A stretch of 64,000 nt of DNA from Henricia sp. BOLD:AAB3569 (taxonomy: Eukaryota > Echinodermata > Asteroidea > Spinulosida > Echinasteridae). The position numbers and the translations under genes are program-made. Below the pieces are notes generated by a model. It was not told where the DNA came from. It ran no database searches and saw only the letters and a program-made list of their open reading frames with translations. The stretch spans positions 2,046,001 to 2,110,000 of the forward strand of contig JBBELK010000062.1 in assembly GCA_037783545.1 (NCBI GenBank). The letters are read 5' to 3'. This document shows, piece after piece, positions 2,856 to 62,614 of this stretch; within the stretch, counting starts at the first letter, position 1; every line of letters begins with the position of its first letter.

Positions 2856-3133
2856 ATATATCTCAAGTTAATTTTGACCAACACAAAATTGATAAAGCAC
2901 GGCACTCTTCAAGTGAATAAACCCTCACTTCTGATGCAAGATACCTGGAGGAAAAACACATGTGTGGCACTCAAACATCACCAATGATCTGGGTTGGATT
3001 GGGGTGAGGATGAGAGTGGGGTAGGGTGGGGTGGAGTGAAATAGGGTGCAGCGGGAATAAGCTGGGTGGCGTAGGGCAAGAGATGTATGATGTCCTCTAG
3101 CTTTACATAAACATTATTCCCCATTTGATTCAG

Positions 3134-4232
3134 GTTGAAGCACTCCAAGGGGATCCCAAATACATCTGGGGATACAACACAACCCGGCTTTGTTCGGTCG
3201 CCGAAAACATCTGGCGAGCAGCAAATATCCCAGAGATGCTCAGTATCAGAGAGACAGAAACAGGTACCTGCAGGGCTCCCAACACCACATACGACAAACC
3301 AGCAGAAGCGCCGGCGGCGGCGGCGGCAACGGCGGCAGAGGCAGCAGCAATAGCAGCAGCAGCCGCTGCAGCCGCAGCAACAGCAACAACAACAACAACA
3401 ACAGCAGCAGCAGCAACAACAACAACAGCAGCAGCAGCAGCAGAAGCGTTGCTGCCAACGCCCCATTCCACAGTGCCCCACCTCGCCCCGGACAACCTGG
3501 AAACACCGACGACTGGAGTGGTCCTCTTGGGGAGTGAGGCGTATGGCACGGTCATGCTGCTGCTGCTACGAGCGGAAAAAGTCCCAGTTGCAGTAAAAAC
3601 CGTTAGTTTGTTAATTTGGGAATTAGTGCTTCGGGAAGCACGCGCTATGTCCGTGCTTTCCGGACATCAGTCATTCCCGACATTATTTGGTGTATTAGTG
3701 GATGGGGAGGAGCGGTGTATTGTGATGGAGTTTTTAGGTAATGTATCTACGGGAGAGTCACTGACATTGCATGATTCACTAAGGGGACCCCGTCGCCTTG
3801 CTCTGAGCCCTTCCGCCTGGTCTAGCATTGCGCTGGACATGGTGGAGGGGCATGCACGACAGATGTCTCCTGCATAACGACTTTAAGACGGATACCGTTT
3901 TTGTTCGTTATGCAGGAGGCCGATGCACTGCATGTATCATCGACGTGGGCATGTGTACCCTGGCCAATTATTCCAGGATACGCAAGCTCAATTATCAGGA
4001 GAAGCAGCAATATCGCCAATTCCACGCGCATATTGCTCCCGAGCTAGGTGAAGACGGAGCACCCGAGACTCAGCTAAGTGACGTTTTTCAGTTGGGTCTG
4101 GTGCTCCGGTTCATCGGCCAGAACGGGGGCGTGCCGGAATTGTTTATGTTTTGGGACTGGTGCGGGAAGAGAGACCCGCAGGCCCGGCCCTCAACCGTGG
4201 TACTTCGTTTAATGATGTCAAACCTGATATGA
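3134..4232 (+). CDS. Divergent protein kinase domain exon, frameshifted
   Basis: The C-terminal half encodes a protein kinase domain. Visible in order: a modified glycine loop GSEAYGTV (about 3529), VAVK with the ATP-binding lysine (about 3588), the helix-C glutamate in LREARAM, hinge VMEFLG, HNDFK in place of HRDLK with the catalytic Asp kept (about 3873), DVG in place of DFG (3942), APE (about 4035), SDVFQLG, and a subdomain XI arginine before a stop ending at 4232. The KxxN Asn is Thr. Lys, Glu and both Asp persist, so activity is possible. The frame changes near 3850: the earlier frame runs to a stop at 3877 while the later frame carries HNDFK onward. Relative to other kinases about eight bases seem missing. 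The 5' part probably splices at 3263/3264, leaving the triplet repeat intronic or low-complexity coding. Pseudogene, allele or assembly error cannot be separated. Confidence 0.7.
3301..3447 (+). repeat. Imperfect GCA/CAA/CAG/CGG trinucleotide repeat
   Basis: About 145 bases of interrupted CGG, GCA, CAG and CAA triplets. In the kinase frame they would read as alanine and threonine runs. Several long antisense frames (poly-Cys, poly-Leu, poly-Val) are artefacts of this tract. Confidence 0.85.
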
Positions 4233-6007: not shown

Positions 6008-6570
6008 GTAAAAAGAACTATTCAAGATGATCGAAGTACTCGACTCAGACGATGCAATCAGTGCCAGTTCTCAACGAACACAGGCATCTCGTAGAAGCAG
6101 CAGAAATTCTCTGAAGTCAAACACGAGCTCAGCAGCCATCCTTGCTCGTGATAAAGCCGAATCCTTGAAGCAAAAAGTAGAATTCACGCAGAAAGAGGCG
6201 GGTCTTCGTCGGCAAGAACAAGATGTCGCCAATGCACTTCTTCTATTGGGGGCGGAAAAGGAGTATGCGATGGCAAAAGCGGAAGCGGAATTTTTAGAGT
6301 CAGTCGCCCTGAAGGAAGGTTCTGCCAGTATCCAAGAAGATTTGCAGTTGCCAGTTGTTGACTCCGCTGTTCGCACTGGCAGCTATATATCCCACCACTT
6401 TAACCCTTTCATTACCAATGTGCCAAACGGGCTCAAAATGTTTGGGACGGTTCCGTACCATTGTGCCACTGAGGTTCACAAAAAAATGTCATCCTCGATA
6501 CCAACGTGCCATATGGCACAAGTTGTAATGCTTTGAACGCAAAACGTTATAGCGCCCTCATATGTCCCAT

Positions 6571-6578
6571 TATAAAAG
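6571..6578 (+). promoter_or_regulatory. TATA box of the piggyBac transposase
   Basis: TATAAAAG lies 49 bases upstream of the transposase ATG at 6627, inside the left end of the piggyBac element. Transcription would start about 25-30 bases downstream, near 6600, giving a short leader. Confidence 0.55.
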
Positions 6579-6626
6579 ACGGCGTGCCAAATTTGAAATC
6601 ACTTCAACCGCCGACGCGACACGGAC

Positions 6627-8910
6627 ATGATGGAAAGCGACCAAGCTACAAACATTTTGGATGAAATCCTTGCCGACAGCGGGTCCGACCTTTCTTCCCT
6701 AGAAAGTTACTCTAGTGACTCCGACGAGCCGGCCAGTGCTAGCGAAGATGACGTCTCCACCGTGACAACATCAACACCCCCACGTCCTGGTGAGAAGCCG
6801 AACTTTCGTCGCGGATGGCAGGAAATCAGTTCTGCTGCATGTAGTTCGAGGTATGGGCATATAGCTAGTACTACTATAGGCTAGTATATTACAAAAAAAC
6901 TCCGATTGAAGGGGATGTCTATAGGCTTATAATATTATGCTATAGACATGTCTGCCTCACACAAAATAAGAACAAAATTGCCAGGATCTTTAAAACCTTA
7001 CGATTATCTCTGAGGCGGAGAAATATGGCCAAGATTGTCGACATTTCATTCGTGTTTATTCGATACTATAGACCATATCGCCAACCGCGTGTTTCACCAA
7101 CAAAGTGCGCCCTTCTGCAAAGCACTGGGATTTCTGAGGGGTGATCTGAAACCATCGATAGTTTGACCCCTGATAAATTCCATAGTGCTTTGCAGAGGAG
7201 CGCCCTCTGTTGGTGAAAGACGATTTGCAATATGGTCTATGAACGTACGCTTGTTATTTCCAACCGTCGAATAGGATGGCACGTACCAGACTATTGTCAA
7301 ATGCACTTTCCCAATTTTTGCACTGACAGGAGTCCGAGTATACCCTTGGCATTCATATTATGTTGCTAACCCTAATCAACACTTTCTTGTCCACATACAG
7401 GCGTAAACTCCCGATTGCCTTTAAGGGGAAGAAGGTACCCACCGTGGATGTAAGCAACTTAAAACCAGTGGAGGTTTTCCAGCTGTATTTCTGCCAGGCA
7501 GTCTGGGAGTTGGTAGTGACGGAGACGAACAGATACGCTCGGCAAACCTTGGATGCAAATCCTGGTAGTTCCCAAGCATGGAGTCCTGTCGGTGTCCCCG
7601 AAATGAAGGCATTTGTGGCACTTCTCCTCTGCATGGGCATAAGCAGACGACCGCAATACAGTCTGTACTGGTCTACATCGGAAATCCTGAGGTGTCCCCT
7701 ATACGCGGCAACTATGTCACGCAACAGATTCAAAACAATCCTCCGGTACCTGCATCTTGCTGACAACCTCAGACCACAAGCAGGAAATGGCGTTCATGAC
7801 CAGAGACTGTTCAAACTACAGCCACTACTAGACATAGTGGTACCAAGTTTTCTGCGTGTCTACAGTCCTAGACAGAACCTATCCCCTGACGAAAGCATGA
7901 TACGGTTCAAAGGACGACTGACCTTCAAGCAGTACATGCCACGGAAACCGATCAAATGGGGAGTTAAATGTTACGCATTGACTGAATCCGAGACGGGATA
8001 CATGTGTGCCTGGAACATCTATACAGGACGCAGTCAAAGCCAGGCTGATACCAGTCAACCTACTGGAGTAAATAGTGCAACCAGCCATCCAACCCACATT
8101 TCGCTACCAGGCCAAGCCGTCCTGAAACTGGTGGATAATGTAATACACAGGGGGCATACATTATTCATGGACAATTGGTATTCTAGTCCAGCTCTCTTCG
8201 CCAGGTTGACCCAGCTGGGCTTTGGATGCTGTGGGACTGTCCGCCACAATTCACAAGGACTACCACTCGATGCTGACCCAAAGAAGTTTCCGATGAAGAG
8301 AGGCGACGACCCAAAATTTTATGAGAAAGCTGGTCAAATGTGTGTCGCGTGGCATGACAAGAAACGTGTCACACTTCTCACAAACTACGGTGACTGCAGA
8401 ATCACAGAAACACAGGTCCGCTGCAAAGAGAGTGAAACAGGATATCGCGATATCAACAAACCTGCCATCATCACCGAGTACAACAAAGGAATGGGCGGAA
8501 CCGATCTTGCTGGTCAACTTTGCTCATATTACACTCATTCGCATCGCTCCGTTAAATGGTGGAAAAAAGTTTTTTTCACCATTCTCGACATATGTCTGCT
8601 AAATGCCAGAGTAGCGTACAGTAGCGTGCCTTCAAATCCTCAACCGTCCACTCTCCAGTTCCAAATGAGAATCATAGAGGCTTTGCTGTCCACTTGGAAG
8701 CAACACCAATCTCTTCCTGCCAGCCCAGTGAACAATCAAGTACGAACAGCTCAAGGTCAGCACTATCCTTGCCGCAACCAAAATGGTAACAAACGCGACT
8801 GTGCTGTGTGTAGTACCAGAGTTAGGAGACGGCAAACACGTTTTATGTGCAAGCAATGCAATAAATTTATGTGTGTAGTTGACTGCTTTGAGAAATACCA
8901 CACTACCTAG
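6627..8910 (+). CDS. piggyBac transposase (two exons, 577 residues)
   Basis: This DDE-type transposase would cut and paste its element at TTAA. Exon 1 (6627-6850) encodes an acidic Ser/Asp/Glu-rich N-terminus typical of the family; exon 2 (7401-8910) carries the catalytic domain. Donor GAG|GTATGG and acceptor ACATACAG|G have matching phase: the split codon becomes Arg75 and the join is open to the stop, giving 577 residues, close to the usual 570-600. The catalytic aspartates are Asp238 (SPDESM), Asp332 (LFMDNWYS) and Asp443 (MGGTDLAG), with family spacing. The C-terminal 60 residues hold a Cys-rich zinc-binding domain (DCAVCS, FMCKQCNKFMC). No frameshift or stop is seen. A PGBD4-like domesticated gene is an alternative, but the flanking terminal repeats favour a mobile copy. 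Confidence 0.9.
7069..7239. repeat. MITE inside the piggyBac intron
   Basis: A 171-bp foldback unit starts TAGACCATATCGC and ends with its near complement ATATGGTCTA. The arms extend about 65 bases with mismatches (GTTTCACCAACAAAGTGCGCCC against GAGCGCCCTCTGTTGGTGAAA). It lies wholly within the transposase intron, so the reading frame is preserved. Confidence 0.7.
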
Positions 8911-8994
8911 CTGACCAGACCGTATCTGTTAAGGATTATTTGAGAAGTTCTTCAGAAACCGCTCTAAACTACATTTCTTTTTAAGATGTCAGTC

Positions 8995-9282
8995 TCTCTC
9001 TCTCTCTCTCTCTACCGACCCCCCCCCCCCCCCCCTCTCTGAAGTCTTTAACTTCAGAGGGTTCCAACTCAATACAGCAGGGTAGCGCCATTGCACGGAC
9101 CAATGGCGGATCTGGCTGCCCGCAACGCACAACAAGCGACTGACACAAAATATGTATTGGATGGGTCCTTTTTAAGATGTCATTCTCTACCTACTACCCC
9201 CCCCCCGTTCAATGTTGGGCATGGACCCCGGCAGCGTGCCCAGCATCCATTCCAACATTGAGCGGGGGGGGGGGGGGGGGGG
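8995..9282. repeat. (CT)n, poly-C and poly-C/poly-G hairpin tracts
   Basis: A (CT)n run near 8995-9013 is followed by a run of about 16 C (9019-9034). At 9197-9282 a C-run plus GTTCAATGTTGG faces CCAACATTGAGC plus a G-run, forming a hairpin with homopolymer ends. TTTTTAAGATGTCA occurs at about 8980 and again at about 9170, suggesting a local duplication. All of it lies in the 3' part of the piggyBac element. Confidence 0.7.
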
Positions 9283-9598
9283 GCTGTTGTGTTGCATTTA
9301 GAGGACCACTTTCCTGCAATATGAAAACAAACATCAATAATTCTGGTACATTTATACACTTTTCGAATAAGTCTTTTGTCATGTAGGCCAAAGAGAAATC
9401 TTCATTACTGCGGTTTCTGAAGAATGTTGTCAAGTTTTTCACCCTTCTGTCAGTTCTAATTGGAAATGAAATGACTTCAAACCAGACCTTGTTATATTCA
9501 AAGGGTGGGGGAATATAATAAAGTAATGTCAACCAACAAATAAATAAATAAATAAAAAACACCTCATCTGTTACTTTGTCATTCTATGAACATATGCA

Positions 9599-9703
9599 CA
9601 CTATGAACAACTAACAATGGAAATTGGGCGCGCGCACACACACCATTGTTAACAACAATGGTGTGTGCGCGCGCCCAATTTCTTTTGTTAGTTGCTCATA
9701 GTG
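9599..9703. mobile_element. CACTA-type palindromic MITE, copy 1
   Basis: A near-perfect 105-bp palindrome starts CACTATGAACAACTAAC and ends GTTGCTCATAGTG; the centre has an alternating GCGCGCACACAC expansion absent from the other copies. The flanks are GCA and ACA, so the 3-bp duplication is imperfect. It lies in the 3' region of the piggyBac element, making a third nesting level. Confidence 0.75.
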
Positions 9704-11069
9704 ACAGGTACAGTTTGAAAGCCGCAGACTGATTGCACAAATTTATCTCAATTAATTTGCCTGCAGATAAACACCCTTTCCAGGCACTGCCCTGTGAGGG
9801 CGCCATACAGGTATATTTCCAAAAAGGTCTTTGGTACAGAGCAGCCAATGCCAAATTCAACACTGTGGTTGTGAAAGGCAAAACTGTGGGTGGATGGATG
9901 GTACTGAAAGGGTTATGAAGCCAGAGACAGAGTTGCCTGAAAAAGAAAAATCAGCGATCAACATTGAAGAAAAGCTACCGGACCCCCCTAGCCCACCTAT
10001 CAAGGAGAGTCTCAACTCCATCAGTAACATGTTGGTGAAGAAGGAGCTGGTAAAGAGTGGAATCAGAAAATTTGGAGGCAGTGCGGGTGACTACCGAGCG
10101 TGGAAGAGCAGCTTTCAACAAGCAACAAAGGACCTGGAGTTGAAGCCATATGAGGAGTTAAACTTGGTCCTGGGTTCCCTCGAGGGCGAGACAAGATCCT
10201 TTGTCTAAAGGATCTACGCCATCCATGTCGACAGACCAGAAGTGGGCCTCAAGCGAACATGGGAGTATCTGGAGCAAAAACATGGCTCCCCAGAGGCAGT
10301 GGAACGAGATCTCACTGACCGACTAGAGTGGTTTCAAAAGATCCCACCTAAGAGCAGCACCAAGTTGGAAGAGTTTGAATATCTTCTCCTTAAGGTCCAA
10401 TACCTGAAGGAGTCGGAAAAGTTTCCAGGGTTGCTGGCCTTGGATTCCTCGAGGGGATTGCAGCCCCTAGTGCAGAAATTGCCAGAATGGCTACAGAACA
10501 AGTGGCGAGAGAAGGGGTCAGAATACAAGAAGAAACATGTGGTCATCTTCCCACCTTTTGAGGAATTCGTAAAGTTCATCCAGCACCATGCCAGAGTGCA
10601 AGGCGACCCGAGCTTCCAGTTTTCCGAAGCTGTCAGGAGTTCAGCTGAACGGTCTTCGTCAAAGCTTTCCTTCACCGTAAGAAAAACTGGGGTAAAGGAA
10701 GGGTCGGCAGCAAAGGAGACGGCCAGTTGCCAAGTACACAACATAGCACACGATGTGCGGGATTGCCGGGCCTTCCGAAGGAAATCCCCAGATGAGAAGA
10801 TATCATTTGTGAAAGAGAATCGTCTATGTTTCCGATGTTTTAGGACCAGCCTCACCATTAAAAACTGTAAGACCCCAGTGAGATGCGACATTTGTGTCAA
10901 GTCCCATGTCACAGTCATGCACAGGCCCGCACCCAGTCAGGGCGAAGTTCCACCAGCGGCAAATCAGACACCCCCTACCGCAGAGTACGACAACCGACAC
11001 CAAAATGCACCAGAGTATGTGGCAACGGTAAAAAAGGCCGGTCGTGCGCCAAAATTTGTTTGGCAAAAG

Positions 11070-14000
11070 CCTACCTGGAAGAGATGCCGGACCGTGTTAT
11101 CGCCACGTACGTCATCATCGACGACCAAAGCGATGGTTCCCTCATCAATGGGAATCTTCTTGAGAGATTAGGAGTCAAGCAGGAGAAGTCAACGTATGCC
11201 GTCAAGACGGTAAATGGCCTCCAGGAAGTCCATGGCAGAAAATTTGCTGGCCTGGTCATCGAGAGCATGGACGGCACAGTTTCCATTCCAGCACATACAT
11301 TGTTCGAGTGCAACAATATTCCTGGAGATGTAGCGGAGATTCCCACACCGGAGGCGGCAGCAGCCTTCGATCACCTAAAGCCGATTGCTTCGATGATACC
11401 ACCCCTGAACAAAGATGCAGAAATAGCAGTACTACTCGGCAGAGATGCTCCACAGTTCCACAAAGTGAGGAAGGTGATCAACGGCAGAGATGATCAGCCA
11501 TGGGCACACCGTCTCGATCTAGGCTGGGTCGTTGTTGGCGAGGTTTGTTTGAACGGCGCCCACATCCGGACAGACATCTCCCACCTGCAGCAAGACGTAA
11601 TCAGTACCTACTTTACGCAGGTCTTGAGAAACGGCCGCCATTCCGCCAAATTCCAGCCATGCGACCGGGCAGTGCAGGTCTTCCACACCAGTCCTAAAGC
11701 AGCTAAATTGGGGAAAGATGTGTTCCTTAGCACCAGTGCTGATGAGCGTCTTGGGCCGTCCTCCGACGACAGAGAGTTCATGGAGTTGATCACCAAAGAA
11801 ATGAAGAAAGACCGAGATGGTTACTGGTGTGCACCTTTGCCCCTCAGAAAAAACAACAAGGCCCAAGCAATATCCAGAATGAAAGCCCTGGCCAGTTCTC
11901 TGGCTAAAGACGAAAACAAAAGGCAGCACTACATCGAGTTCATGAGAAAGATCTTGGAGAAGGGACTTGCTAAGCAGGTTCGAGATGATGCAACCGATGC
12001 TGGGGAAGAGGTTTGGTACCTCCCACACTTCGGAGTATACCACCCCCAGAAGCCAGGCAAGCTAAGAGTGGTGTTCGACCCTAGTGCTGTCCATTCAGGC
12101 ATTTACCTCAATGATGTTTTGCTAAGCGGACCTGATCCGATGAACCAGCTGCTGGGCGTCCTGATCAGGTTCCGAGAGGAGCCAGTTGCAGTCACCGCAG
12201 ATATCGAGCAGATGTTTTATGCTTTCAAGGTTCGAGAAGACCACACAACATTCCTACGCTTCCTATGGTATGAGGACAACAACCCAAACGCAGCCATTGT
12301 CACTTACTGCATGACAGTGCTTTCCATGTCTGTGGCAACAAGCCATCCCCAGCTGTGGCAATCAGTGGCAATCAGTGGCCTAAGAAAGACAGGTGAAGAA
12401 GGTGAAGCAGAGTTTGGAACCGATGTGAAGGAGCTGATAGAAATAAATTTCTATATGGACGACCTATTGAAGTCCTCACCAACCAAGGAAGAGGCAGTCG
12501 ACGTGCTGAAGAGAACAAAGAATCTCCTGTCCACTGCGAATATACGTCTGCACAAGTTCGCTTCCAGCGATGTTGATGTCCTGAGTGCATTTGAGCCAAG
12601 CGAGTTGGCCCTGAACCTGGCTGAAGCTGACCTCTCCAGCAGAGATAAATGTACCATAAGGCGCACATTGGGAGTATCCTGGGACCTGAGGTCAGACTCT
12701 TTCACCTTCCAATTAGCAGAACCGAATATCAGCGCGTGCACCAAGAGGCCTGTGTTGTCAGAAGTTAATGGAGTTTTCGACCCGATTGGGTTGGCAGCAC
12801 CTGTGATCATCAAAGGGAAGATGCTGTTGCGAGAGATGACGCAAAATGGTGGTGGCTGGGATGATCCTCTCCCAAAGCACCTGCTCCAAGACTGGGTGAG
12901 GTGGAGAAAGTCCCTGATCGCCTTGACGGATGTGCGAGTTCCTCGCTCATTTGCACCATTCCCAACCACAAGAGCAGTGAGACGAGAGCTTCATACCTTT
13001 GGGGACGCTTCAAACAAGGCCATAGGCGCAGTCTTCTACCTGAGGACTGTTGGCATCAACGGTGAAGTCCATGTCCAGTTGGTGATGGGTAAAGCAAAGC
13101 TCGCACCTAAAGCAGCAGTCAGCATACCACGCCTTGAGCTCTGCGCATCAGTCTTGGCCACATAAATCGAAGACTACGTCACTCAGGAACTACAGACCAA
13201 AGTTGATGATTCAAGGTTCTACACTGATAGTAAAGTTGTCCTGGGGTACATCACCAACAGAAAACGTCGCTTCCGCACCTACGTGTGCAACCGAGTAAAT
13301 CAGTTACTCAAAACTTCCAAGCCTGAGCAGTGGGCGTATGTCCCCTCAGAGAGAAACCCAGCAGACCTAGCTTCAAGATCCATTCCGGCAGCAGAGTGTT
13401 TGAGGCAGAAGAACCTGCCCACGAGCCACGAGCAGAGAGAGGTAGAAATTCTTCAGGACGACCCAGAGGTGTCTCCAGAGAACATTAGCTGCAACAAGGT
13501 TGTCTTGGCCGATGCATCCCTCGGCAGTGAGAGATTGACCAGATTTTCAAGTTGGGATTCAGCGATGAGAGCCACTATACCAACTTTATCCACATTGCCA
13601 ACTCATTCAGAGCAGAATCCGGCTGTAAAGGTTGGCATGTCTGTGAGAAGGCAAAGTCCGTCACAGAACGTCTCCAAGCTGAAACCGTCATACTAAAGAG
13701 TGTGCAGAGTGAAGCCTTCGCTACCGAGTTAGCCGAATTTAGAAGTGGAAAGGTGACCAAGAAGAACAGACTGGCCTCGCTCAACCCCTACCTTGACAGC
13801 AACGGTATACTCCGAGTCGGAGGCAGATTGCAGAAAGCTCAACTGCCAGAGAAAACCGCACATCCAGTCACTATGAGCAACTAACAATGGAAATTGGGCA
13901 CAAACCTTTGTTATTAACAATGGTGTGAGCCAAATTTCCATTGTTAGTTGCTCATAGTGAGTGGTGCTACCAAAGAACAACCACGTGACAAAGCTCATCA

Positions 14001-16459: not shown

Positions 16460-18205
16460 TATTACAAACAGTTCTGGCAGTAACCAAGTTCGGAGAAACA
16501 AAATCCTTTGTTGAAAATTCTTGGGGCTATTGTGTGATCGATTTTTAAAGCTATTGACAAGAAGTTGGGAGATTGGTTGAACACCGAATGGGGACAGAGA
16601 GGTGGTGGCGTAAAATGTGCGTTTAAAAGTAACCAGTCTTGCACGCAACTGTGAAAATGTATGCCATCTGGGCAAATGGACGGCCAAAAATAAGCCGAAT
16701 TCCATTTAGGAATAACGAGGGTACATTTGGCTTTGCACTTGTGCAATTGTTCCATAGTCGCTAACACAAGGGAAATGGGGGGACACAGGTAGTTATTGTC
16801 ATGTGACCAATCATAACAAAATGCGTCCACTCATGCCGAACCTCTACACCAAAATCGTGTATTGAATGTGCTAATCTTAAAATTACTGGAGGAAGCGAAA
16901 CGGTCGAATGAGTGAGGGCCCAAGCGCGAATTCATGAGATCAAAGGTATACTGATCGATTGACCAATCGTCAAAATCTGAAACCTTACTGATACGATCTG
17001 CAATTGTGTTTAATTCGCGGGGCAAATGCTCCGGAATGACAACAAAATTGTGCTTTAAACACAAGGAAAATATGGCAAGGGCTATTTCCTGCAAATCGGG
17101 TTTCTTACTACCGTGTGAAAGAATTCGCGGTACGTTCGCGTTATCGGTGTAAAGCCTAATTTTCTCGTGTGAAATTATATCGCGCAGTTCTAGAAGGATT
17201 CTGTATACCGCGGCGAGTTCGCGCCACGTAGAACTGAGTCTTCTTTCTTGAAGAGACCAAGAACCATTGACCTGTATGAGTGGCGAGGTATCTGATATAA
17301 AACCGCCGTAGCCGATGCTGCTCGCGTCGGTATGGATAGCCCGGGTACAAGAATGTTGGTGCCTAACAAAGAAACCGTTCAAGAAAGCTACGTTCGAACG
17401 CCAAAATGTCAATTCACCGATTGCTTGTTGTGACATGACAACAGGGTCTGACCACGCGAAAGTTGAATTGATCGAGCGATGCATGGCTCGTGTTTTTAAA
17501 CGGGTGATTGGACCGAGAGCGAGATACATTGAGGTGATTTGGCCGGTGACGCTAGCGAGTGTTCGGGCTTGAATTGGGTGATTGTTGGGAATTGCGTCCA
17601 AAATGTCATGTATGGACTGAAGCAACTTGGCGACTTTTTTTTCGGGGACCGAAAATGTAAGATTGAGGGAATCTATCGTTAGCCCGAGAAAGGTTACCGA
17701 TGTGTGCGGTTCCCATAAACATTTGGTTGCGCTGGGCACAAAACCGCTGTGGGAAATTGAAACTTTGACGAAGCTGGAGTTGCGTACGGCCGTTTCGCGA
17801 TCGGCCGGATGAAATAATGATACCGTCGTCAATATACATAAAAGATGCGATACCCTGGGAGCGCCAATGGTAGACTAAGGGCCGTGTTATCTTTGTGAAG
17901 ATGTAAGACGCGCTTGAGAGGCCGAAAGGGAGCACTTTGAATACGTAAAATCGGGTTATTGTATCGTTGTGTGTCCAAGAAAAGCCGAGATATTTGCGGT
18001 GCGGGGGAAATATGTCGATGTGATGGTATCCCGACTCCAAGTCAATTGTGAAGTAGAATAGGTCAAAATCAAGCATCTGGGATACCACCTTGAGGTCTTC
18101 GTACTTAAATGTCTGCTTAAAAATGAATTGGTTCGGGTGGCGCAGATCGAGTACCAGTCTAAGTTTCTTGCCCTCGGCGACTAGGTAGGGGATACAAAAA
18201 GACAT
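16460..18205 (-). pseudogene. DIRS-like RT-RNase H region
   Basis: The minus strand shows an RT with LRLVLDLRHPN, FTIDLESGYHHI, LPFGLSSA and MYIDDGI. The RNase H has IHTDASSIGYGG and LYTDNANV, followed by a DIRS-type tail (DAFCYDWSHDNN, STLVIPKW-like, SAYFWP). The order and the tail are characteristic of DIRS and Ngaro elements rather than Gypsy. The region is broken. Confidence 0.75.
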
Positions 18206-18286
18206 TCTGGATGCTTACATCCAGGAAGTGAGCAAACAATCGATTAATAAAACTATGAAAGGTGTCGAGGATTAGACTATCCTTAA

Positions 18287-18427
18287 AGGTACAGGCTCGT
18301 CAACAATGCGCGCGCGCCAAAGCCGTGCCACGAAACACGCAGCTCCATGCCCTTGCTATGGAGCTGCGTACCGGTATTTCGTGGCACGAATTTGGCGCGC
18401 GCGCGCATTGTTGACGAGCCTGTGCCT
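18287..18427. mobile_element. TTAA-flanked palindromic MITE, copy 1
   Basis: A 141-bp palindrome with ends AGGTACAGGCTCGTCAACAATGC and their near complement, flanked by TTAA on both sides (18283-18286 and 18428-18431). The interior is rich in GCGCGC with GTGCCACGAAA arms. TTAA target sites suggest mobilisation by a piggyBac-type transposase (inference). Confidence 0.75.
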
Positions 18428-18517
18428 TTAATGTGCGTTGGAAGATTATTCCACAACCGTGGGAAGAAATGAACCAGTGTATTTCTGAGGCTAAGAATTC
18501 TGGCAAAGTGTATTTAA

Positions 18518-18614
18518 AGGCACAGGCTCGTCAGCAATGCGCGCGCAAGGGCATGGAGCTGCGTGTTTTGTGGCACGGCGTTGGCGCGCGCGCATTGTTA
18601 ACGAGCCTGTGCCT
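18518..18614. mobile_element. TTAA-flanked palindromic MITE, copy 2
   Basis: A shorter member (97 bp) of the family at 18287, with ends AGGCACAGGCTCGTCA and complement and TTAA on both sides. It is 86 bases beyond the first copy. The intervening bases look like ordinary sequence, so this is either two independent insertions or a duplication. Confidence 0.75.
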
Positions 18615-18626
18615 TTAATTGAGATT

Positions 18627-25940: not shown

Positions 25941-28923
25941 TGAAGGTTCTTCCAATTCTGTTGTTTGTTGTCTGTCTGCTGGGACTGAGTACTGGTGTTC
26001 GCCGTCAGTTAACTGAAGCTGAGGTTGCTAGAGCTGTCCAGCTCCTTGAATTTGGCAATACACAGCGTGCGGTGGCTGTACATTTTGATGTGTCCGTAAG
26101 TGTCATCAACCGGTTGTGGAGACGTTTTCAGGAAGATGGTCTGTACACCAGGAGGCCAGGACAAGGTCGCAGACGTGTGACTACCCCTCCCTAGGACCGA
26201 TACCTGAGGATCCTGGCACGTCGAAATCGACGATCTACTGCAATATCCTTAGCCACAAGCTTCCACAGGGCAACTGATGTCCGTGTTTCCAATCAAACAG
26301 TCAGGAATCGTCTGCATGAAGATGGTATGAGAGCCAGACGACCAGCCACATGCCCCATTTTGTCCGTAGTACACCGCAGAGCCCGGCTGGACTTTGCTAG
26401 AAACCATCAATTTTGGCAGATGGACCAGTGGGCACCAGTACTGTTCTCAAATGAAAGCAGGTTCACTGTTTCCTTCATTCATTCATTCATTCATTTTATT
26501 TGCCTCAATTCGTGGCCCAAAGGCCAAATTCAAGGAGACAATTACAATTTAATAAATTAAAATCCTTAACAAAAAACATCGAAAATCCTTACACACAAGA
26601 CGGCACCAAATACTTAAAAAACACAATCGCCAGACACACTATGCAAACGAATCAAAATCAAGCACAATCAGAATTTAAAATGTTGACAAAATAGGGGATT
26701 GGGCTTTGACTGAACCGTTTAGTTTTACAGGGAAACTGCGTTAACTTTTCCATATTGCGCAGGTTCCGGCCATGACATTCCCCTCTCGTGGGGGGAAGTA
26801 GATGGGCAGATCTAGGGTTTATGGCAAGACCTTTGGCAAATTTCAAACAGTGTTCTTGTCTTCTTTTTTCAAGTGTGTCCAAACCACAATGGTCAAGCGC
26901 AGCTTTGTAAGAACAATACTGATTGCCTAAAATAGTTCTGCAAGCCCGTTTCTGTATTCTTTCAAGATCATAAGTTTGTTTTTTATTCAAGCCGGATTGC
27001 CATATTGCATCCGCATACTCGACCATTGGTCTGACAAAACTGTTTATAGACAACAATTAGTTCTTCATGATCAAATCCAAACTTTTTCAGAGAGCGCAAC
27101 ATGAAAAGGCGTCTGCCAGCTTGTTTGATCATATGATCGACCTGGGCTTCCCACTTAAGATCCGCTTGAACCCATACACCCAGGACCTTCGCTTGGTTAA
27201 CATGATGTAACTTTTCAGAACCAATAAATAATTCAGTCGGAGCTGGGGCAGATTTACTAAAACAAATCTCAAGCATCTGGCATTTTGATGGGTTTAATTT
27301 AAGATGATTACATTTTGCCCAATCGTCGAGACCAACCAAATCATTTTGCAACGCACTCCTTTCATTAGTTTTCCTATTCTCGGCAAATGTAAGGTCGTCA
27401 ACGTACTTCCAATATTCAGAATGGGCATTAATAGCTGCATCGTTAATTAGGATTTGAAAAGCAAGAGGTCCTAATTTGGTGCCTTGAGGGACACCTCCAT
27501 GGAGTTCACTAAATTCTGAAGTACATTTGTTAAACTTAACACATTGTTTACGGTTCTGAAGGAAGTTGCAAGTCCAAGGGACGATGCTACGACGAACCCC
27601 GATCTGCAACATTTTATTGACGAGTACAGTATGGTCGACAAGGTCAAAGGCTTTTGAAAAGTCAGTCAAAACCATCGACCCAACGTTGCAACTTCCCTCA
27701 GCCCCTTGATGCAAAAAGTGGAGAAGGTTAACGAGATAATGATTAGTAGAAACACCAGGGACATTACCAAATTGCCTTTTATCAATGCGGTGACCAATAT
27801 CATCTGACATCCAACTACAGATAAAGTTCTCGGCAACCTTAGCAAAAATGGGTGTAAGTGAAATTGGTCGCAATTTGTCAATTAAAGGAGGATTCTGCTT
27901 CGGCACCGGAACAACAATTGCTCTTTTCCACTGATCCGGAACCACCCCAGTATCAAAGGAACAATTCAATATATTTGTCAGTGGCACACTGAGCTCATAG
28001 GCAAATTCTTTAATGAGTTTAGCGGGCACACCATCTGGGCCAGTCGCTTTATTAGGTTTGATCCTTCTAAGCACATGGTAGACATTCCAAGGGTAGAGTG
28101 TCGGGACAGGGTTATCCGCTGGTAGGTAGGCAGGGAGATCGCCCAGATCAAGATGTTGTAAATGATCGGAGATTTTGACAAACATTTCATTGATTGCATT
28201 TGCCTTGCTACCCACGTCCCTGTCATCTACACCCGGAACAGTTAACCTGAGTTCAGTACGACCTGAATTAGTGACATGTTTAATTTGCTGGTACCATCTA
28301 CGTGGGTCAGTTTTTTGTAAATTTCTAATCCGATTCGCATGGTATGAGACCTTAGCCCTATTTCAACTGTTTCAACCAATGATAGACGTGTAAGGGTTTG
28401 GAGACGGTCGGAGGAACGATATTTCAACTGCAACATTGTCGAATTTGACCACTTTGGAGGTGGATCAGTTATGGTGTGGGCGGGTATCTCCCTGGAGGGG
28501 CGTACGGACCTCGTCGTGGTAGCTGGTGGTGCACTAACAGGTTTGAGGTATCGAGATGAGATACTGGAACCTGTTGTGAGGCCATATGCTGCTGCCGTAG
28601 GTGAAAATTTCATCCTGGTGCAAGATAACGCTCGTGCACACACTGCACGAGTGTCCATGAACTTTCTTGAGAATGAGGGAATCAGCACGATGCCCTGGCC
28701 GGCAAGATCTCCTGACCTAAACCCTATAGAGCATGCATGGGACATGCTTGGCAGACGTGTTGCGGGTCGAGAACATGCTCCAGACTCTGTACAGACACTC
28801 AGAGAGGCCTTGGTTGAAGAGTGGGAGAACATTCCTCAAGACTCCATAAGACAGTTAATTTTAAGCATGCCTCGACGCTGTCAGGAGTGCATACAAGCAC
28901 GTGGAGGTCATACCAGTTACTAG
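25941..28923 (+). pseudogene. Tc1-like transposase, broken and LINE-interrupted
   Basis: The N-terminal part (to 26194) has a paired-like helix-turn-helix (RRQLTEAEVARAVQLLEFG, TQRAVAVHFDVS) and a GRRR AT-hook-like motif. The frame then breaks at about 26192 and resumes with DRYLRILARRNRRSTA. The first catalytic Asp position reads SNESRF where SDESRF is usual, so Asp is Asn. After the LINE, the C-terminal part (from about 28374) has VMVWAGIS, VQDNARAHTA with the second Asp, and SPDLNPIEHAWD with the Glu of the DD34E set, ending at 28923. If the ATG at 25941 is the start, the protein begins with a hydrophobic MKVLPILLFVVCLLGLSTG stretch resembling a signal peptide. Non-functional. Confidence 0.85.
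26473..28365 (-). mobile_element. 5'-truncated LINE (CR1/L2-like) inside Tc1
   Basis: The insertion is flanked by an 8-bp duplication ACTGTTTC (26465-26472 and 28366-28373). On the minus strand it runs 5' to 3' from 28365 to a 3' tail of (AATG)n at 26473-26500. The endonuclease is missing and the remaining frame begins just before the reverse transcriptase. The RT shows NKATGPDGVP, LTDFSKAFD, GGVPQGTKLGP and YVDD at the catalytic box. A frameshift near 27040 separates the RT from the C-terminal segment (VRPMVEYADAIWQSG). The tail type and RT motifs suggest the CR1/L2 assemblage; the clade is uncertain. Confidence 0.85.
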
Positions 28924-29556
28924 ACAATGATTAATTAACGTTTACTTTGCCAAAACGTGGACAATGTACGGATAGTCATGATAACCTGCCAGATGATTAT
29001 GTCCATATTTTTGTTCATTCATGTTTTAGTCATGTTAACAGGCTACCACATCAATAAATTTCGCCATACATTGTTGAGTATTGTTTGATAATCAATTGAC
29101 AACACCTGAATGATTTTCACATAACTTTAATGCTCTTGTTCTAACGGTAGCCCATATAGACCATGACAAAAAACATTATGTTCTCTTGTTCCTTTAATTC
29201 TTTTGAGTAGTGTATAATGAAAAGGCCCAATATATGAAGTCGTTTCTAAAATTCACAATTCCAGTTAATGCTTGAACAAAAAACTCAGAAAACGGTTTAT
29301 TTAAAATGCAACAATAAGTTGTGGATTTCCGTAGTTTGTCTGTGGATTTAAAACAAAATACACAAAGCGATAATGACACAGACTTTTCCAAGAATAAAAT
29401 TGTTTCAGAAAAATGCAACTAAAATGTTAATGTTACTTTTTAAAAAAAGTGCCCGCATATGATCGTTAATTCTCATTTCAATTCCAAATTTCAATCTTTA
29501 ACGCAATGATTGGTTAATAATGCTGGCCTGTATGTCTCGCGTCCGTATCCCGGACT

Positions 29557-29647
29557 CACTATGAACAACTAACAATGGAAATTAGGCACACACCATTGTT
29601 AATAACAATGGTTTGTGCCCAATTTCCATTGTTAGTTGCTCATAGTG
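29557..29647. mobile_element. CACTA-type palindromic MITE, copy 3
   Basis: A 91-bp palindrome (CACTATGAACAACTAAC... to ...GTTGCTCATAGTG) with a perfect ACT target duplication (29554-29556 and 29648-29650). It lies in the 3' untranslated region of the cathepsin B-like gene, with two bases of the stop codon inside the duplicated target. Confidence 0.85.
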
Positions 29648-29648
29648 A

Positions 29649-37599: not shown

Positions 37600-39980
37600 G
37601 AGGAGTCGACATGATGAAGAGACTTGTCGTAGAAGCTCTGATTAGCTCGGTCCTATTGAAGTACCATTTGAGGGCTCGGACCGGGCACCACTTCCTATCT
37701 TCCAGAACAGACGAGTACTATTTAATGTCTGGGACGAAGATGACAGGAGGAGAGAAGCAGTCCGATTGGTTCTTCGTTAGGAAGGAGGTCTGGGGAACCA
37801 GACGAACTCCATGGGGCTCCCAGCGAATATGGCCGGGTTAGATAGACAAGGCCTGAAGTTCGCTTCGGCGTTGAGAGGTCGCGACTGCTAGAAGGAAGGC
37901 GAACTTTATCGAGAGGTTGAGCAAGGACGTCTGTCCCGAAGGGTTCAAACGGGGGACGCGAAATGCTCTCAAGAACAAGTGGAAGGTCTCAGGAGGGGAG
38001 TAACTCACGAGTGAGAGGCTTCTCAATGAACATCCCGCGGAGGATATGACCCAAGGCGTAATTATTAGAGATAGACGAGCCGTCGGGAAATCCCGCGTGG
38101 ATGGCGGCAATGGCTGATCAGTAGTTCTTGATGGTGGCTACCTTGAGGCCAGAGACCAGAAAATCGCCAATGTCTGTCAGGGAAGAATGGGCCAGATTAA
38201 CAGCTTTCGGCACCATTTATAGAAATGTCGAAGTCGGCTGTTGTAGACCTTCCTGGTGGACGATCGACGACAGTGTGCCGCGAACAAGGCAGCTTCTGAC
38301 GAAAGACATGCTGCGCGGAAGGACTGTTCGACAATAACCAGCACGTCAGGTGAAGATCCTTGGGGGCTGGGTGGAGAATGTTCGAGCCCGGTTGGAACAG
38401 AATGTCCGGTGGATGAGGAAGAACTATCGGGTTGTGAATCAACAGGTTGACCAGACGCGGGAACCACGCTTGCCGAGGCCAGAACGGGGCCATGAGGAGA
38501 ACCTTGGAATTAAGGATATCGGGGGGAACGCGTAGGCGAACATTCCCGACCAAGGAATCGACAGGGTATCGACTTGCCACGCTCGAGGGTCGGGATGCCT
38601 GGAGCAAAACAACTGGGAGATGGTTGTTGGCTCCCGACGCAAACAGATCTATGTGTGGACGATCGACTGTCAAGAAGATCTGTTCGACCACACTGGGTTG
38701 CAGAGTCCACTCTGTTCGTCGGATCCTTCCCCTGGAGAGGGCATCAGCTATCGAGTTGTCCGAGCCTGGTACATGGGAAGCCTTCAGTGTGATGTTGAGA
38801 TCCAGGCACCAGTAAAAAATGTCCCACGCGAGGAGGCAGAGCGAGGAGATCAGGTGCCTCCCTCGCGGTTGATGTAGGCCACGACTGTGGAGTTGTCTGA
38901 CTTGACGAGTACAGCACGGTCCCGAATGAGACAGCTGAAGTGTCGGATAGAGATTAAGCGGTGGGCGGAATGAATCTTCGGACGGAAGTGGGCAGGGAGA
39001 TGAAGCTGGAGTGGACGCATGTACAAACGGCAGAACGGTATCAGGTCCACCAAACTTGCCATCAACCCCCAGCAGTTTCAGCCACGCTACTGCAGGGGCC
39101 GAGTCTCTCTCGAGAAACAGGCGGACGCACTGCTGGAGATTGAAAATGCGAGGAGCCGAAGGAAAGGCAATGCTCCTCTTGTGGTCGAGGACAGCCCCCA
39201 GAAACGTCGGTGACTGCGAGGGAATAAGCCGCGATTTCCTTTCGTTGACCAGAAAGCCAAGTTGAGTGGTCATGGACAACGTCTCCTGCAATGCCCGACT
39301 GGCTTCGGCCTTTGAGCGGCCTACAATGAGCCAGTCGTCCAAGTACATGAAGATCGTGATGTTGTTTCTGTGAAGGAACGCAGCCAATGATTTCACGATC
39401 CTCGTGAACACGCGAGGGGAAGTTTATAGGCCAAAGGGGAGTGCGGTGAATTCGTAAGCAGTCCCCCTGTAGTGGAACCGAAGTAGCCCATGCGGGGACC
39501 GGAATCGAGTCGAGAATCGTCCGAAGGGAGTCCATGCGAAAACACTTTGGGCGGGGAAACCTGTTCAGGGCTTTCAGGTTGGGAATAGGCCGCCACTCTC
39601 CCGAGTCTCCTTTGGGAGTCAGGAAGAAGGTCGACTGAAAACCGGACGGATCTCCAGTTGGGACTACGCGGATAGCGTTCTTGGAGAGGAGAGACCCGAT
39701 TTACGATTCTAGAGCCAGACGTTTGGATGGATCGGTAGGGACGTGGGTCTGGCGAATCAAGTTGTCCGACAGAGGGGTGCTCGTGAATTCCAGAGAGTAA
39801 CCGTTTCGAATTGTCTGTAGCACCCATCGGTCGGAGACGGTCCGGGTCCAGGACCCTATGAAGGCTTGAAGGCTGCCGCCCACGGGTCCGGTTATAGGAG
39901 GCCGCTGGAGCTGGACGGAGTCATTGGCACCAGCCCCAGGTAAACCGGGAGGCCGGTGGCCTGTTATGTCGGCCACCCAG
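37600..39980 (-). pseudogene. DIRS RT-RNase H and tyrosine recombinase region
   Basis: The RT has FMYLDDWLIVG (about 39330). The RNase H tail has HVPGSDNSIADALSRG (about 38740). A tyrosine recombinase follows (about 37600-38460): an N-terminal STRKVYNSRLRHFYKWC segment and a core part FLLAVATSQRRSELQALS. A tyrosine recombinase instead of an integrase defines the DIRS group. Broken. Confidence 0.75.
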
Positions 39981-59271: not shown

Positions 59272-62200
59272 TTATCTTAGATCCTGAAAGTAGCTAGACA
59301 AGGTTATGTTGAATGAATTGAAGCTGTCCATGATAACAGAGTCTCTGATATGTGAGGGAAGGCTGCTCCAGATCCGTGGGAATGAATGAGTGATGGAGTT
59401 CTTAAGGGCAAGTGTTCTGGCATACTGGTGGATGAAAACGAGATGATCCTGGTGGCGCGTGTTTACAGTTAAGTTATCATGAATCGAATGACAGTCAATA
59501 ACTCGAAATATGGACTTCATAACAAATGTGATTGCTTGCTTGTCACGTCTGTTCCCTAAGGACGTCCAGTTGAGGGCTCGAAGTCTTTCCTCATAAGACA
59601 TAGACCCCCTTGCAACCTTTAAGCACATCCTGCTGACACGGCGCTGGACCCTCTCCAGTTTGGATTTGTCGACCGCGGTGTATGGGGACCAGTCTGGCAA
59701 ACCGTATTCCAGCACTGGTAGCACAGGGGATTTGTAGAGGGATGCAATGGCCTTTGTTGACGCACCACCTGCCACTTGCCATATGAAGCCTAATGTTCGG
59801 TTGGCTTTCGAAACAACCGTGTTGATGTGGTCAGTCCAGGTCAGGGTACTGTCGATAGTAATACCAAGGTATTTGTGTGTTGTAGTGATGCTGAGAGGAG
59901 TGCCGTGGAGTGTGTAAACTGGTGGTTCCACTGGTTTCCTCGCTCTTGTCATGTGCAGTACTTTTGTCTTCTTTTTGTAGATCTGCATGCTATTCATTGT
60001 ACACCAACTGCCAAGTTCAGTGAGGTCTGCTTGGAGGGCAAGCTCATCATCTGGTGACTGGATTGGTTGGTAAATAATTGTATCATCGGCAAATAACAGG
60101 ACGTTTGTTGACAGGTTGTGGGAAATGTCATTCACGAAGAGGTTGAAAAGCAAAGGGCCTAGGACGCTTCCTTGTGGGACTCCGGATGTTACTGGGGCCC
60201 AGTCCGAACAGCAACCGCGATACATAACACGCTGCCTTCGGCCAATCAAGAAGGATTTAATCCATGCCCAGGTTTGTCCACGGATGTTGTAATTACTTGC
60301 AATTTTTTCAAGCAGGGTGTGGTGAGGCATGACGTCAAAGGCCTTGCTGAAATCGAGGAAGATTATGTCGATGCGAGGAGGACGCGGTCTATCGAGTATG
60401 GTTGCCCAGTCAGAGATTGCATTTGTAATTGGGTGACGCAGGATCGATGTGCAGTGAAGCCGTGTTGTTTGGGGTTTGCAAGGCAAAGTGAGGTGATATG
60501 TTCATTGATGTTCTCTCCCACGGCTTTTCCAAGAACTTTGCAGATGACCGAAGTTAATGCGACTGGACGGTAGTTTTGGATGTTGGTGCGCTTGCCAGAC
60601 TTAAACACTGTTGATATTTGACTAAGTTTCCAGTCCATAGGGAGGGTACCGGTTGAAAGCGAAGAGTGCATTACTCGTAGGAGTGGAGGTGCAAGTGTTG
60701 TGGCCATTGCTCGGATTAATGTAGACGAGATGCCATCACATCCTGGAGCTTTGTGTGGGTTGAGATTGAGCAGAGTTTTCCGAAGCCATCCAAGCTTAAC
60801 TGAGATAGGGGAAAGTTCAGGTATTGGCATGGAACAAGGGGGCGGAGTCAGTGGAGGTGGTGTGGGCGGTGACTGAACTGAGGAGAAGAACTTGCTGAAT
60901 GCTTCGCAGATGTCAGTGGGTTTGTGGAGGAGTGAATCATGTGTCTGAAAAGCAGGAGGGCATTGTGACTTTTTCTGGTCCCTCACGAAGCACCAAAAGC
61001 TGCGCTTGTTATCTTTCAGCAGAAAGAGGTTGTTGACGTGTTTCCAGTAGGCAGATTTAGTAAGGTTTTTCACTTTGTTACGAACTTGTTTGTAGTGTTC
61101 CCATGATGTGCTAGATCCAGATTGCTTATCCTTAACAAACAACTTATGCTTTAGCCGGATGAGCTTTTTTAGTTCTGGCGATATCCATGGAGATAAACCA
61201 CGGCGGCATTTCTTCCTTGGGATGCAGTCTCGAATAACAGCATCCAGTATGTCCCTGAAACCGTCCCATGAGGCTTCAGGATCGGTGTCGTCCAAGAAAG
61301 CTGACCATGGGGTAAGGTGAAAAAAGCATCTCCATGTGGTTGAAATCGGCCTTTTTATACTGTAGAAATGAACGGATAACTTGAGGTTAAGGAGCCTTGT
61401 TTGAAGAGAACGTGAAATGAACTGCGTGGTGATCATTACTGACTGGATTAGCTATAGATTCAACTGACGTGAATTTCTCTGGTCGATTCGTGAAGATGAG
61501 ATCAATGGTAGTTCCACTTGATGGTGAGTCACGAGAAGGACGAGTCACATCCTCTACGAGTTGTGTGAGACCAATGGGGTCTGTTATTTCCTTCAGTTTG
61601 ACAGTGAGAGCCGATTCGTCTTTCCAATTGATGTTAAAGTCGCCAAGAAGGATCACGCCTTCATAGCATGGGAAATCTGATTGCACTACGTCACATGTCT
61701 CCTGTAGGCTATCGAAGAAACTATTGTCGGAATTTGGGGGTCGATAAGCAATGCCTACCAGCCACTTGGTGCGCTTGAAGGTCAAAGACACCCAAGTTAG
61801 CTCAATGGTGTCAGAATTGAGGTAGTCGAGATGTGTGGGCAAAAGCGAGTCATTGACTACAGCCATTAAACCACCGCCACGACTGTTGCGATCACGGCGA
61901 ATTGTAGAATAGCCGGGCAGAGAAGCAAGAAAATCAGTGTCCTCGGATGACATCCAGGATTCTGTGATGAGAACCATATCTAGTGGATTGAGTTCAAGAA
62001 AGGATTGGAGATATTGTTGTTTGTTACGAATACTTCGGGCGTTTAGGAGTATACCTGAGACGGTATTCTTTGGCCGATGGTTGGAGGGTGAAACTGCAGG
62101 AGGGCTGGAGGTGTCTGGCGGGGGTTGAGTACTGGTGAAATTAGCAGGCATGGCAGAATCGTTGAATAATTCAGAAAATGATGTGTCGCTACATGTTGAA

Positions 62201-62614
62201 AATGGCAGGCTTTGATGAGTGCATGATGGGCAGAACCAGTCAACTGTGCTTGAGATAAGTCTATTGTAGAGAGTAATTGACATATCTGGAATACATTTTT
62301 TGATGAGAGTACTGCAGGCATTCCTCACAAAGAACAGATCTTTGATTTCTTTTAACTGGCTTGCTGCAATTGCCACATGGGTCCTTAACAGGGCCAGGAT
62401 TGCTTTCAATGTCCCCACAAACAGTAAGTGGAATGTTAAATGTAGCAAAACAGTTTGCATAGTAGCTAACTGGGGCATGGCTTAACTTACTTCTCCCAAG
62501 TTTCTTGTTGATCCGCCATGTTGAATAGGGTATGGTGTAAATACACACACATATATGTGTGGGTGTACACACATGTGTGTTTGCTGTGGACAAATGCTGG
62601 ACCACACTGTACAA
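59272..62614 (-). pseudogene. LINE ORF: PHD finger, endonuclease, reverse transcriptase
   Basis: Domains in order on the minus strand: a PHD-like finger (DPCGNCSKPVKRNQ, LCEECLQYSHQK, WFCPSC) at about 62220-62385; endonuclease (LLNARSIRNK, ITESWM, RGGGLMAVV, GIAYRPPNSDN, GDFNINW, SNDHHAV) at about 61430-62060; reverse transcriptase (NPHKAPGCDGIS, NYRPVALTSV, FLDFSKAFD, SGVPQGSVLGP, LLFADDTIIY) at about 59900-60760; and a C-terminal ERVQRRVSRMCL region. Frame changes are visible near 62305 (inside the finger), 61390 and 61330 (between endonuclease and RT) and 60427 (inside the RT), about four in all. The catalytic FADD and the SDH-like His are kept (Asn-Asp-His-His). The element would act in the nucleus by target-primed reverse transcription if intact. 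Confidence 0.88.
62390..62416 (-). other. 2A-like translational recoding motif in the LINE
   Basis: The minus strand reads GDIESNPGP, matching the 2A consensus D(V/I)ExNPGP, directly before the PHD finger. 2A peptides make the ribosome skip a peptide bond between Gly and Pro. Such motifs are known at the N-terminus of some CR1/L2-type LINEs of sea urchin and amphioxus. The frame upstream is hydrophobic (SYYANCFATFNIPLTVC), as in known cases. Confidence 0.8.

Follow-up and report, generated by a model that had tools for sequence, protein, structure and literature searches.

One-sided ATAA and TTAT flanks at apparent TTAA insertion sites of an intron-bearing piggyBac family in a Henricia genome

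What leaves a piggyBac element with TTAA on one side and TTAT on the other? The piggyBac transposon is widely used, and it is thought to duplicate its TTAA target exactly and to leave no trace. The question is raised by a stretch of 64,000 nucleotides from the sea star Henricia sp. BOLD:AAB3569 (contig JBBELK010000062.1, positions 2,046,001 to 2,110,000; hereafter the window), in which a piggyBac element of 3,509 bp occupies positions 6404-9912 between a left flank of TTAA (6400-6403) and a right flank of TTAT (9913-9916). The interrupted element is assigned to BEL/Pao because a Peptidase_A17 domain (E 6.8e-40) lies downstream of the insertion, which bears out the host proposed in the initial annotation of this DNA; the two gag-like open reading frames (ORFs) that flank the insertion gave no Pfam match when scanned. 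Five BEL paralogs lacking the insertion, 98-99% identical over the left flank, continue uninterrupted across this position and carry one TTAA there, identical to the left flank and standing where the window copy reads TTAT on the right. A sixth BEL match (L055; names in L and C are our own labels) is uninformative, the bases around the site being deleted in it.

The TTAT had been taken for a single stray base, a view that does not survive comparison with the rest of the family. Flank tetranucleotides were collected from fetched copies and from genome-wide end patterns, with ends paired according to their contig, strand and spacing; C109 at 1.65 Mb and C930, which belong to another family, were excluded from each end list, leaving 45 of 47 left ends and 50 of 52 right ends. 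For two insertions one end was paired by hand from fetched copies, namely the right end of C1420 and the left one of C290. Pairs more than 4.5 kb apart are those of C461, C363, C846, C109 at 1.71 Mb and C268, among which C846 alone was read through, and six pairs, two of them short (C518 at 346 kb and C808), depend wholly or partly on position. Among the resulting 32 two-ended insertions, the left/right flanks are ATAA/TTAA in 10, TTAA/TTAT in 8, TTAA/TTAA in 6, ATAA/ATAA in 2 and TTAT/TTAT in 2, with TTAT/TTAA, ATAT/TTAT, TAAT/TTAT and TTAA/GGGA found once each. One-sided copies with ATAA on the left or TTAT on the right make up 18 of the 32, and in these the changed base is always the outermost one. 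The two changes exclude each other: neither ATAA/TTAT nor TTAA/ATAA occurs among the 32, and the lack of doubles is significant in the two-by-two table of left TTAA or ATAA against right TTAA or TTAT (n=24; two-sided Fisher p 0.0064). Counted singly, the 39 distinct left flanks comprise 18 TTAA, 16 ATAA and 5 others, and the 41 distinct right flanks 22 TTAA, 14 TTAT and 5 others. Where both flanks of a haplotig pair could be read, the two members agreed (5/5). We also considered microhomology with the neighboring base and rejected it, as the base outside the tetranucleotide varies (flanks judged by eye).

As a control we used a second repeat family of the same genome, with CCCTTTCATTCCC ends, which we take to be piggyBac-type from those ends; 100 of its 110 matches were listed. 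Among the matches listed, its 67 distinct ends read TTAA in 61 cases, ATAA in 3, TTAT in 2 and CCAA in 1. The present family therefore shows a clear excess of ATAA (16/39 distinct left ends versus 3/67 control ends, p 4e-6), in a comparison that pools either side of the control and counts the present family by its left ends.

Do the deviating bases come from the target? Joined flanks of 15 of the 18 one-sided insertions were searched for empty sites (L018, L028 and C363 were left out). Matches were obtained for nine, and all nine read TTAA: the window copy, L009, L010, L015 and L040 from the TTAA/TTAT class, and L025, L027, L029 and L078 from the ATAA/TTAA class. Among the best 40 places scored, no empty-site match was found for L017 and L042, each searched twice, or for L013, L032, L038 and L076, each searched once. 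Because the empty sites found all read TTAA, the changed base appears foreign to the target. Small irregularities accompany some matches, with one extra A beside the site in the match of L029, two extra T in those of L040, and a shift of one base next to the site in two of the four matches of L025 (L081 and L082). Among the best 40 places scored, C242 alone shares the flank of L009 past position 561, and by this likeness it is probably the empty allele of that insertion. For L010, L012, L015, L027 and L029, closely similar empty copies of the flanking DNA are present on the contig that carries the insertion, in large number for L010 (C267) and L015 (C154), so that several insertions sit in locally repeated DNA.

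Empty sites were also sought for copies outside the two one-sided classes. The match of L024 (TTAA/TTAA) reads TTAA; for L019 the matched site, which belongs to a more distantly related paralog, reads TCAA. For the symmetric TTAT/TTAT copy L023, the alignment report, as distinct from the letters themselves, gives an empty-site match of 100% over a 180-base join with TTAT; genuine insertion into TTAT seems also to happen, leaving, as in L023, a symmetric mark. Places spanning the join of the symmetric ATAA/ATAA copy L011 were listed at 88-94% identity, and the empty-site search found no match spanning the join of L035 or L045. In L012 the terminal repeat is preceded at the left junction by TTAA-TTAT (the element starts at locus position 701), while the right junction reads TTAA; its empty sites are four bases shorter, two paralogs on the same contig reading just TTAA. 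The extra bases of L012 may have arisen when a hairpin with an ATAA loop was opened on its wrong side, or may reflect a pre-existing indel.

We lean toward the reading that the TTAT on the right of the window copy was brought by the element, being neither the target nor a later mutation, and that it records a carried overhang ligated without resynthesis. What suggests an overhang is that the changed base lies where a carried 5′ overhang would lie. In the published scheme for piggyBac, the 3′-OH attacks four bases into the flank to form a hairpin, whose opening leaves a four-base TTAA overhang; excision tolerates flanks other than TTAA, and mutation of the flanks does not divert the element from TTAA targets (PMC7351741, cited here, like the other literature below, from excerpts). 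In the same scheme, each non-transferred strand of the excised element ends in a 5′ overhang made up of the four bases that flanked it at the site it left. By the strand-level route that we infer, that overhang would pair with the TTAA target and be ligated without new synthesis. A carried 5′-ATAA set against TTAA would give a mismatch at the outermost position, and replication would then retain one strand, the top strand yielding ATAA/TTAA and the bottom strand TTAA/TTAT. Such a strand split of an ATAA overhang would produce the two classes that are observed, which occur at comparable counts (10 and 8) and never in one insertion. A stronger form of this proposal, which we hold only tentatively and regard as doubtful, is that the mobile unit consists of the element plus a 5′-ATAA overhang on both non-transferred strands, each insertion into TTAA being a double heteroduplex that replication splits. 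If that were true, each copy in the genome would reveal which of the two strands of its integration intermediate had been passed on, and the copies together would document, in nature, that piggyBac can join to its target with no DNA synthesis.

Several observations weigh against the overhang proposal. Most of the empty sites are paralogs and not proven alleles; L023, with its TTAT target duplicated on both sides, looks like ordinary gap filling; and the flanks of L012 match no simple version of the route. The mirror classes could both come from a donor whose two overhangs read ATAA, but such a donor, ATAA/TTAT, is seen in 0 of 32 insertions. The trees are also awkward for it. A one-sided copy should transmit its own class alone, a prediction that fits poorly with the interspersion of the classes on the tree of 28 rows, where starred branches force at least four changes in each and where L010 (TTAA/TTAT) is sister to L017 (ATAA/TTAA) with support 100/98. 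Clustering of the two one-sided classes fails over all copies (p 0.137, 17 rows), and clustering of three classes gives p 0.053 within the young clade and p 0.130 for the full set of copies. Within the young clade the two classes do stand apart (permutation p 0.029, nearest-neighbor p 0.058, 15 rows), which hints weakly at inheritance; an earlier tree had retained haplotig copies, and its clustering was inflated. Simple clonal inheritance from two founder flanks is unsupported by the trees. The misfit could mean an unseen, doubly deviant donor, a deviant overhang made anew, or a tree blurred by conversion.

The second of these options is the strongest rival to a carried overhang, and we consider it unlikely, though it deserves to be taken seriously. 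It holds that the host or the transposase places an A de novo on the gap-side strand, at its outermost position, by non-templated or A-rule-like fill-in after the overhang loses its first base, with no inheritance from the donor. The interspersed classes and the absence of a doubly deviant donor among the 32 insertions would follow naturally, as would the restriction of the change to one base, since CTAA and GTAA are absent from the 39 distinct left ends and TTAC and TTAG from the 41 distinct right ends. Since the control family shows the change so rarely (3/67), however, de novo change would have to depend on this particular transposase; it also leaves unexplained the weak relation of class to relatedness, and, if the two sides changed independently, about 3 doubles would be expected among 24 insertions where none was found.

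That several old donor lineages with mutated flanks exist, and that gene conversion has decoupled the internal tree from the flanks, we judge improbable. The copies are numerous and alike and their classes interspersed, as conversion would have it, but carried flanks are still required, so that for the origin of the classes this is a variant of the overhang reading. Still less probable is insertion into TTAT or ATAA targets followed by one-sided correction. Target choice of this kind has been printed for Pokey, the piggyBac element of Daphnia, whose flanks are TTAA in 88.13, TTAT in 5.93, ATAA in 5.09 and CTAA in 0.85 percent of cases (PMC3849761, in the part drawn on), and L023 does look like a true TTAT insertion. 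Against it, the empty sites of one-sided insertions read TTAA in 9/9 cases, which largely refutes it unless all nine are paralogs unlike the true targets, and the mirror forms should be equally common, yet TTAT/TTAA occurs in 1/32 and TTAA/ATAA in 0/32; for the one-sided copies we set target choice aside on the strength of the TTAA empty sites. Ordinary point mutation of a flank after insertion, to which the single differing base of the window copy might point, has a negligible chance of being correct and is refuted as a general explanation, the median end branch of 0.0037 changes per column predicting about 0.1 such changes in 64 flanks against the 18 one-sided cases, all at the outermost base.

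How does this family compare with known systems? The nearest solved ones, piggyBat (9c0f) and piggyBac (6x67), share with it the DDE_Tnp_1_7 domain, three aspartates, a cysteine-rich C-terminus, CCCTTT ends and a TTAA empty site; the present element differs from both in a 550-base intron in the 5′ part of its transposase gene and in one-sided ATAA or TTAT flanks at 18/32 insertions. Li et al. reportedly described, in 2013, noncanonical piggyBac integrations in cultured cells. In such integrations the target departs from TTAA, whereas in the present family TTAA stands at the empty sites and it is the carried side that seems to deviate. According to a review, about 2% of piggyBac insertions are non-TTAA and can cause mismatches and point mutations (PMC5059932, excerpt). 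Pokey resembles the present family in that TTAT and ATAA take the place of TTAA about equally often, but there the two together amount to about 11% and are interpreted as target choice, whereas here 18/32 insertions deviate on one side and those empty sites that were found read TTAA (PMC3849761). Pokey also has an intron in its transposase gene, one of 68 bp with support from reverse transcription PCR, which precedes an added 585-bp exon 2; the intron here is 550 bases long and follows exon 1 (PMC3575242). The window element thus lacks the Pokey-type arrangement of a short intron before the last exon. PGBD5, described in an excerpt as a piggyBac-derived gene with introns found from cephalochordates to humans (PMC3902484), contrasts with a multi-copy family that has terminal repeats and one intron. 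Most beetle elements have TTAA and a few a deviating duplication or none (PMC12732532), and piggyBac-type miniature inverted-repeat transposable elements (MITEs) of corals have TTAA flanks, with one filled/empty allele pair described (PMC2872659), as far as the excerpted sections of these two reports go. In the literature searched, which omitted most subscription journals, we came across no description of flanks changed on one side at sites that read TTAA when empty. Such flanks at 18/32 insertions would be in vivo evidence of flank bases traveling with the element, and the family would offer a cheap genomic test in other species, the first candidates being the Pokey copies of Daphnia flanked by TTAT or ATAA.

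We assign the element to piggyBac because transposase, ends and target all fit the definition of the superfamily, and much of what had first been claimed for the element, a complete-looking two-exon copy with an open frame, terminal repeats, a TATA-like box and a TTAA site, was confirmed. Exon 1 (6627-6850, plus strand, from the ATG) joins exon 2 (7401-8910, plus strand, including the stop) in phase to give an open frame of 577 residues. Exon 2 matches DDE_Tnp_1_7 at E 2.7e-84 over profile positions 2-348 of 349. Residue alignments to the two solved transposases span three aspartates, presumably the catalytic ones of piggyBac-type transposases, and the cysteine-rich tail; this predicted zinc-binding C-terminal domain aligns to piggyBat residues 537-574. 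The inverted repeats begin with CCYT, as is usual for piggyBac: CCCTTTCATTACCA at 6404-6417 (plus strand) and, in plus-strand letters, TGGTACTGAAAGGG at 9899-9912 (minus strand) match at 13/14 positions, and with the flanking TAA the arms extend to 17 nt at 94% complementarity. The target is TTAA in the five BEL paralogs and in the 9/9 one-sided insertions with a readable empty-site match. Exact duplication of TTAA on both sides is lacking in the window copy and present in 6/32 members, and we accordingly describe the element as a piggyBac element with deviating target duplication.

Between the exons lies a GT...AG intron of 550 bases (6851-7400, plus strand), predicted from the sequence to be spliced. 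Because both splice-site dinucleotides are intact in all 35 rows that retain both sites, out of 43 fetched, we regard the intron as a family trait. The expectation that an intron makes this copy uncommon is accordingly only partly upheld, the more so as an intron has been published for Pokey (PMC3575242). Within the intron, an imperfect palindrome at 7068-7240, corresponding to reverse-strand matches of query positions 665-837, occurs in many copies.

A search of the genome with the element as query, in which the best 40 of 1,381 candidates were scored, gave nine rows spanning the whole query, that of the window included, at 96-100% identity; 43 rows were read, and merging seven haplotig duplicates left at least 36 distinct insertions, a family of the kind the initial annotation had proposed to look for. 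Start codon, both splice sites and open frame are kept in 10/36 (the window copy, L009, L010, L012, L013, L018, L023, L025, L029 and L042). The ratio of mean nonsynonymous (dN) to mean synonymous (dS) divergence is 0.44 over 378 pairs from 28 rows; single ratios against the window copy lie between 0.21 and 0.95, with 0.24 for L038, which is more distant. This pattern is what would be expected from selection on the transposase across successive jumps, and is not strong for single young copies. The closest copy to that of the window among those compared, L009, differs at 0.52% of sites. This divergence, the open frames in 10/36, the five empty BEL paralogs and the probable empty allele of L009 support, as far as sequence can say, a family that was recently mobile and an element that is probably autonomous; of the earlier suggestion of an active or recently active copy, it is the recent part that these data favor. 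The further suggestion that the element mobilizes TTAA MITEs in the window finds no support, as a scan with the terminal 18-mer at up to 3 mismatches returned just the element's own two ends (chance mean 0.12), and the ends of the TTAA-flanked repeat at 18283-18618 differ.

Other parts of the element are recognizable by their letters. A TATA-box-like TATAAAAG at 6571-6578 (plus strand) ends 48 bases 5′ of the start codon and is present in 29/32 copies longer than 2,500 bases, and AATAAA at 9517-9522 (plus strand) is a possible polyadenylation signal, the same letters occurring somewhere past element base 2,500 in 29/32 longer copies. The 3′ part also contains CT, C and G runs (8989-9035 and 9197-9283), and several copies, L022 to L028 among them, contain an additional stretch of about 137 bases close to position 2761 of the element. 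A palindrome at 9599-9703, found in many copies, belongs with related short palindromes (CACTATGA..CAACTAACAATGG..) at 13864-13964 and 29556-29648 of the window; the repeat is MITE-like and has become incorporated into the piggyBac family.

Elsewhere in the window, the repeat at 18283-18618 consists of several inverted arms (TTAAAGGCACAGGCTCG...). An Rfam scan of the window at gathering scores gave no match. Retroelement-like ORFs for reverse transcriptase, RNase H or endonuclease occur at 16831-18205, 26983-28215, 38197-39411 and 59272-62478, and an ORF at 3125-3877 weakly matches a protein kinase domain (PF07714, E 2.8e-5).

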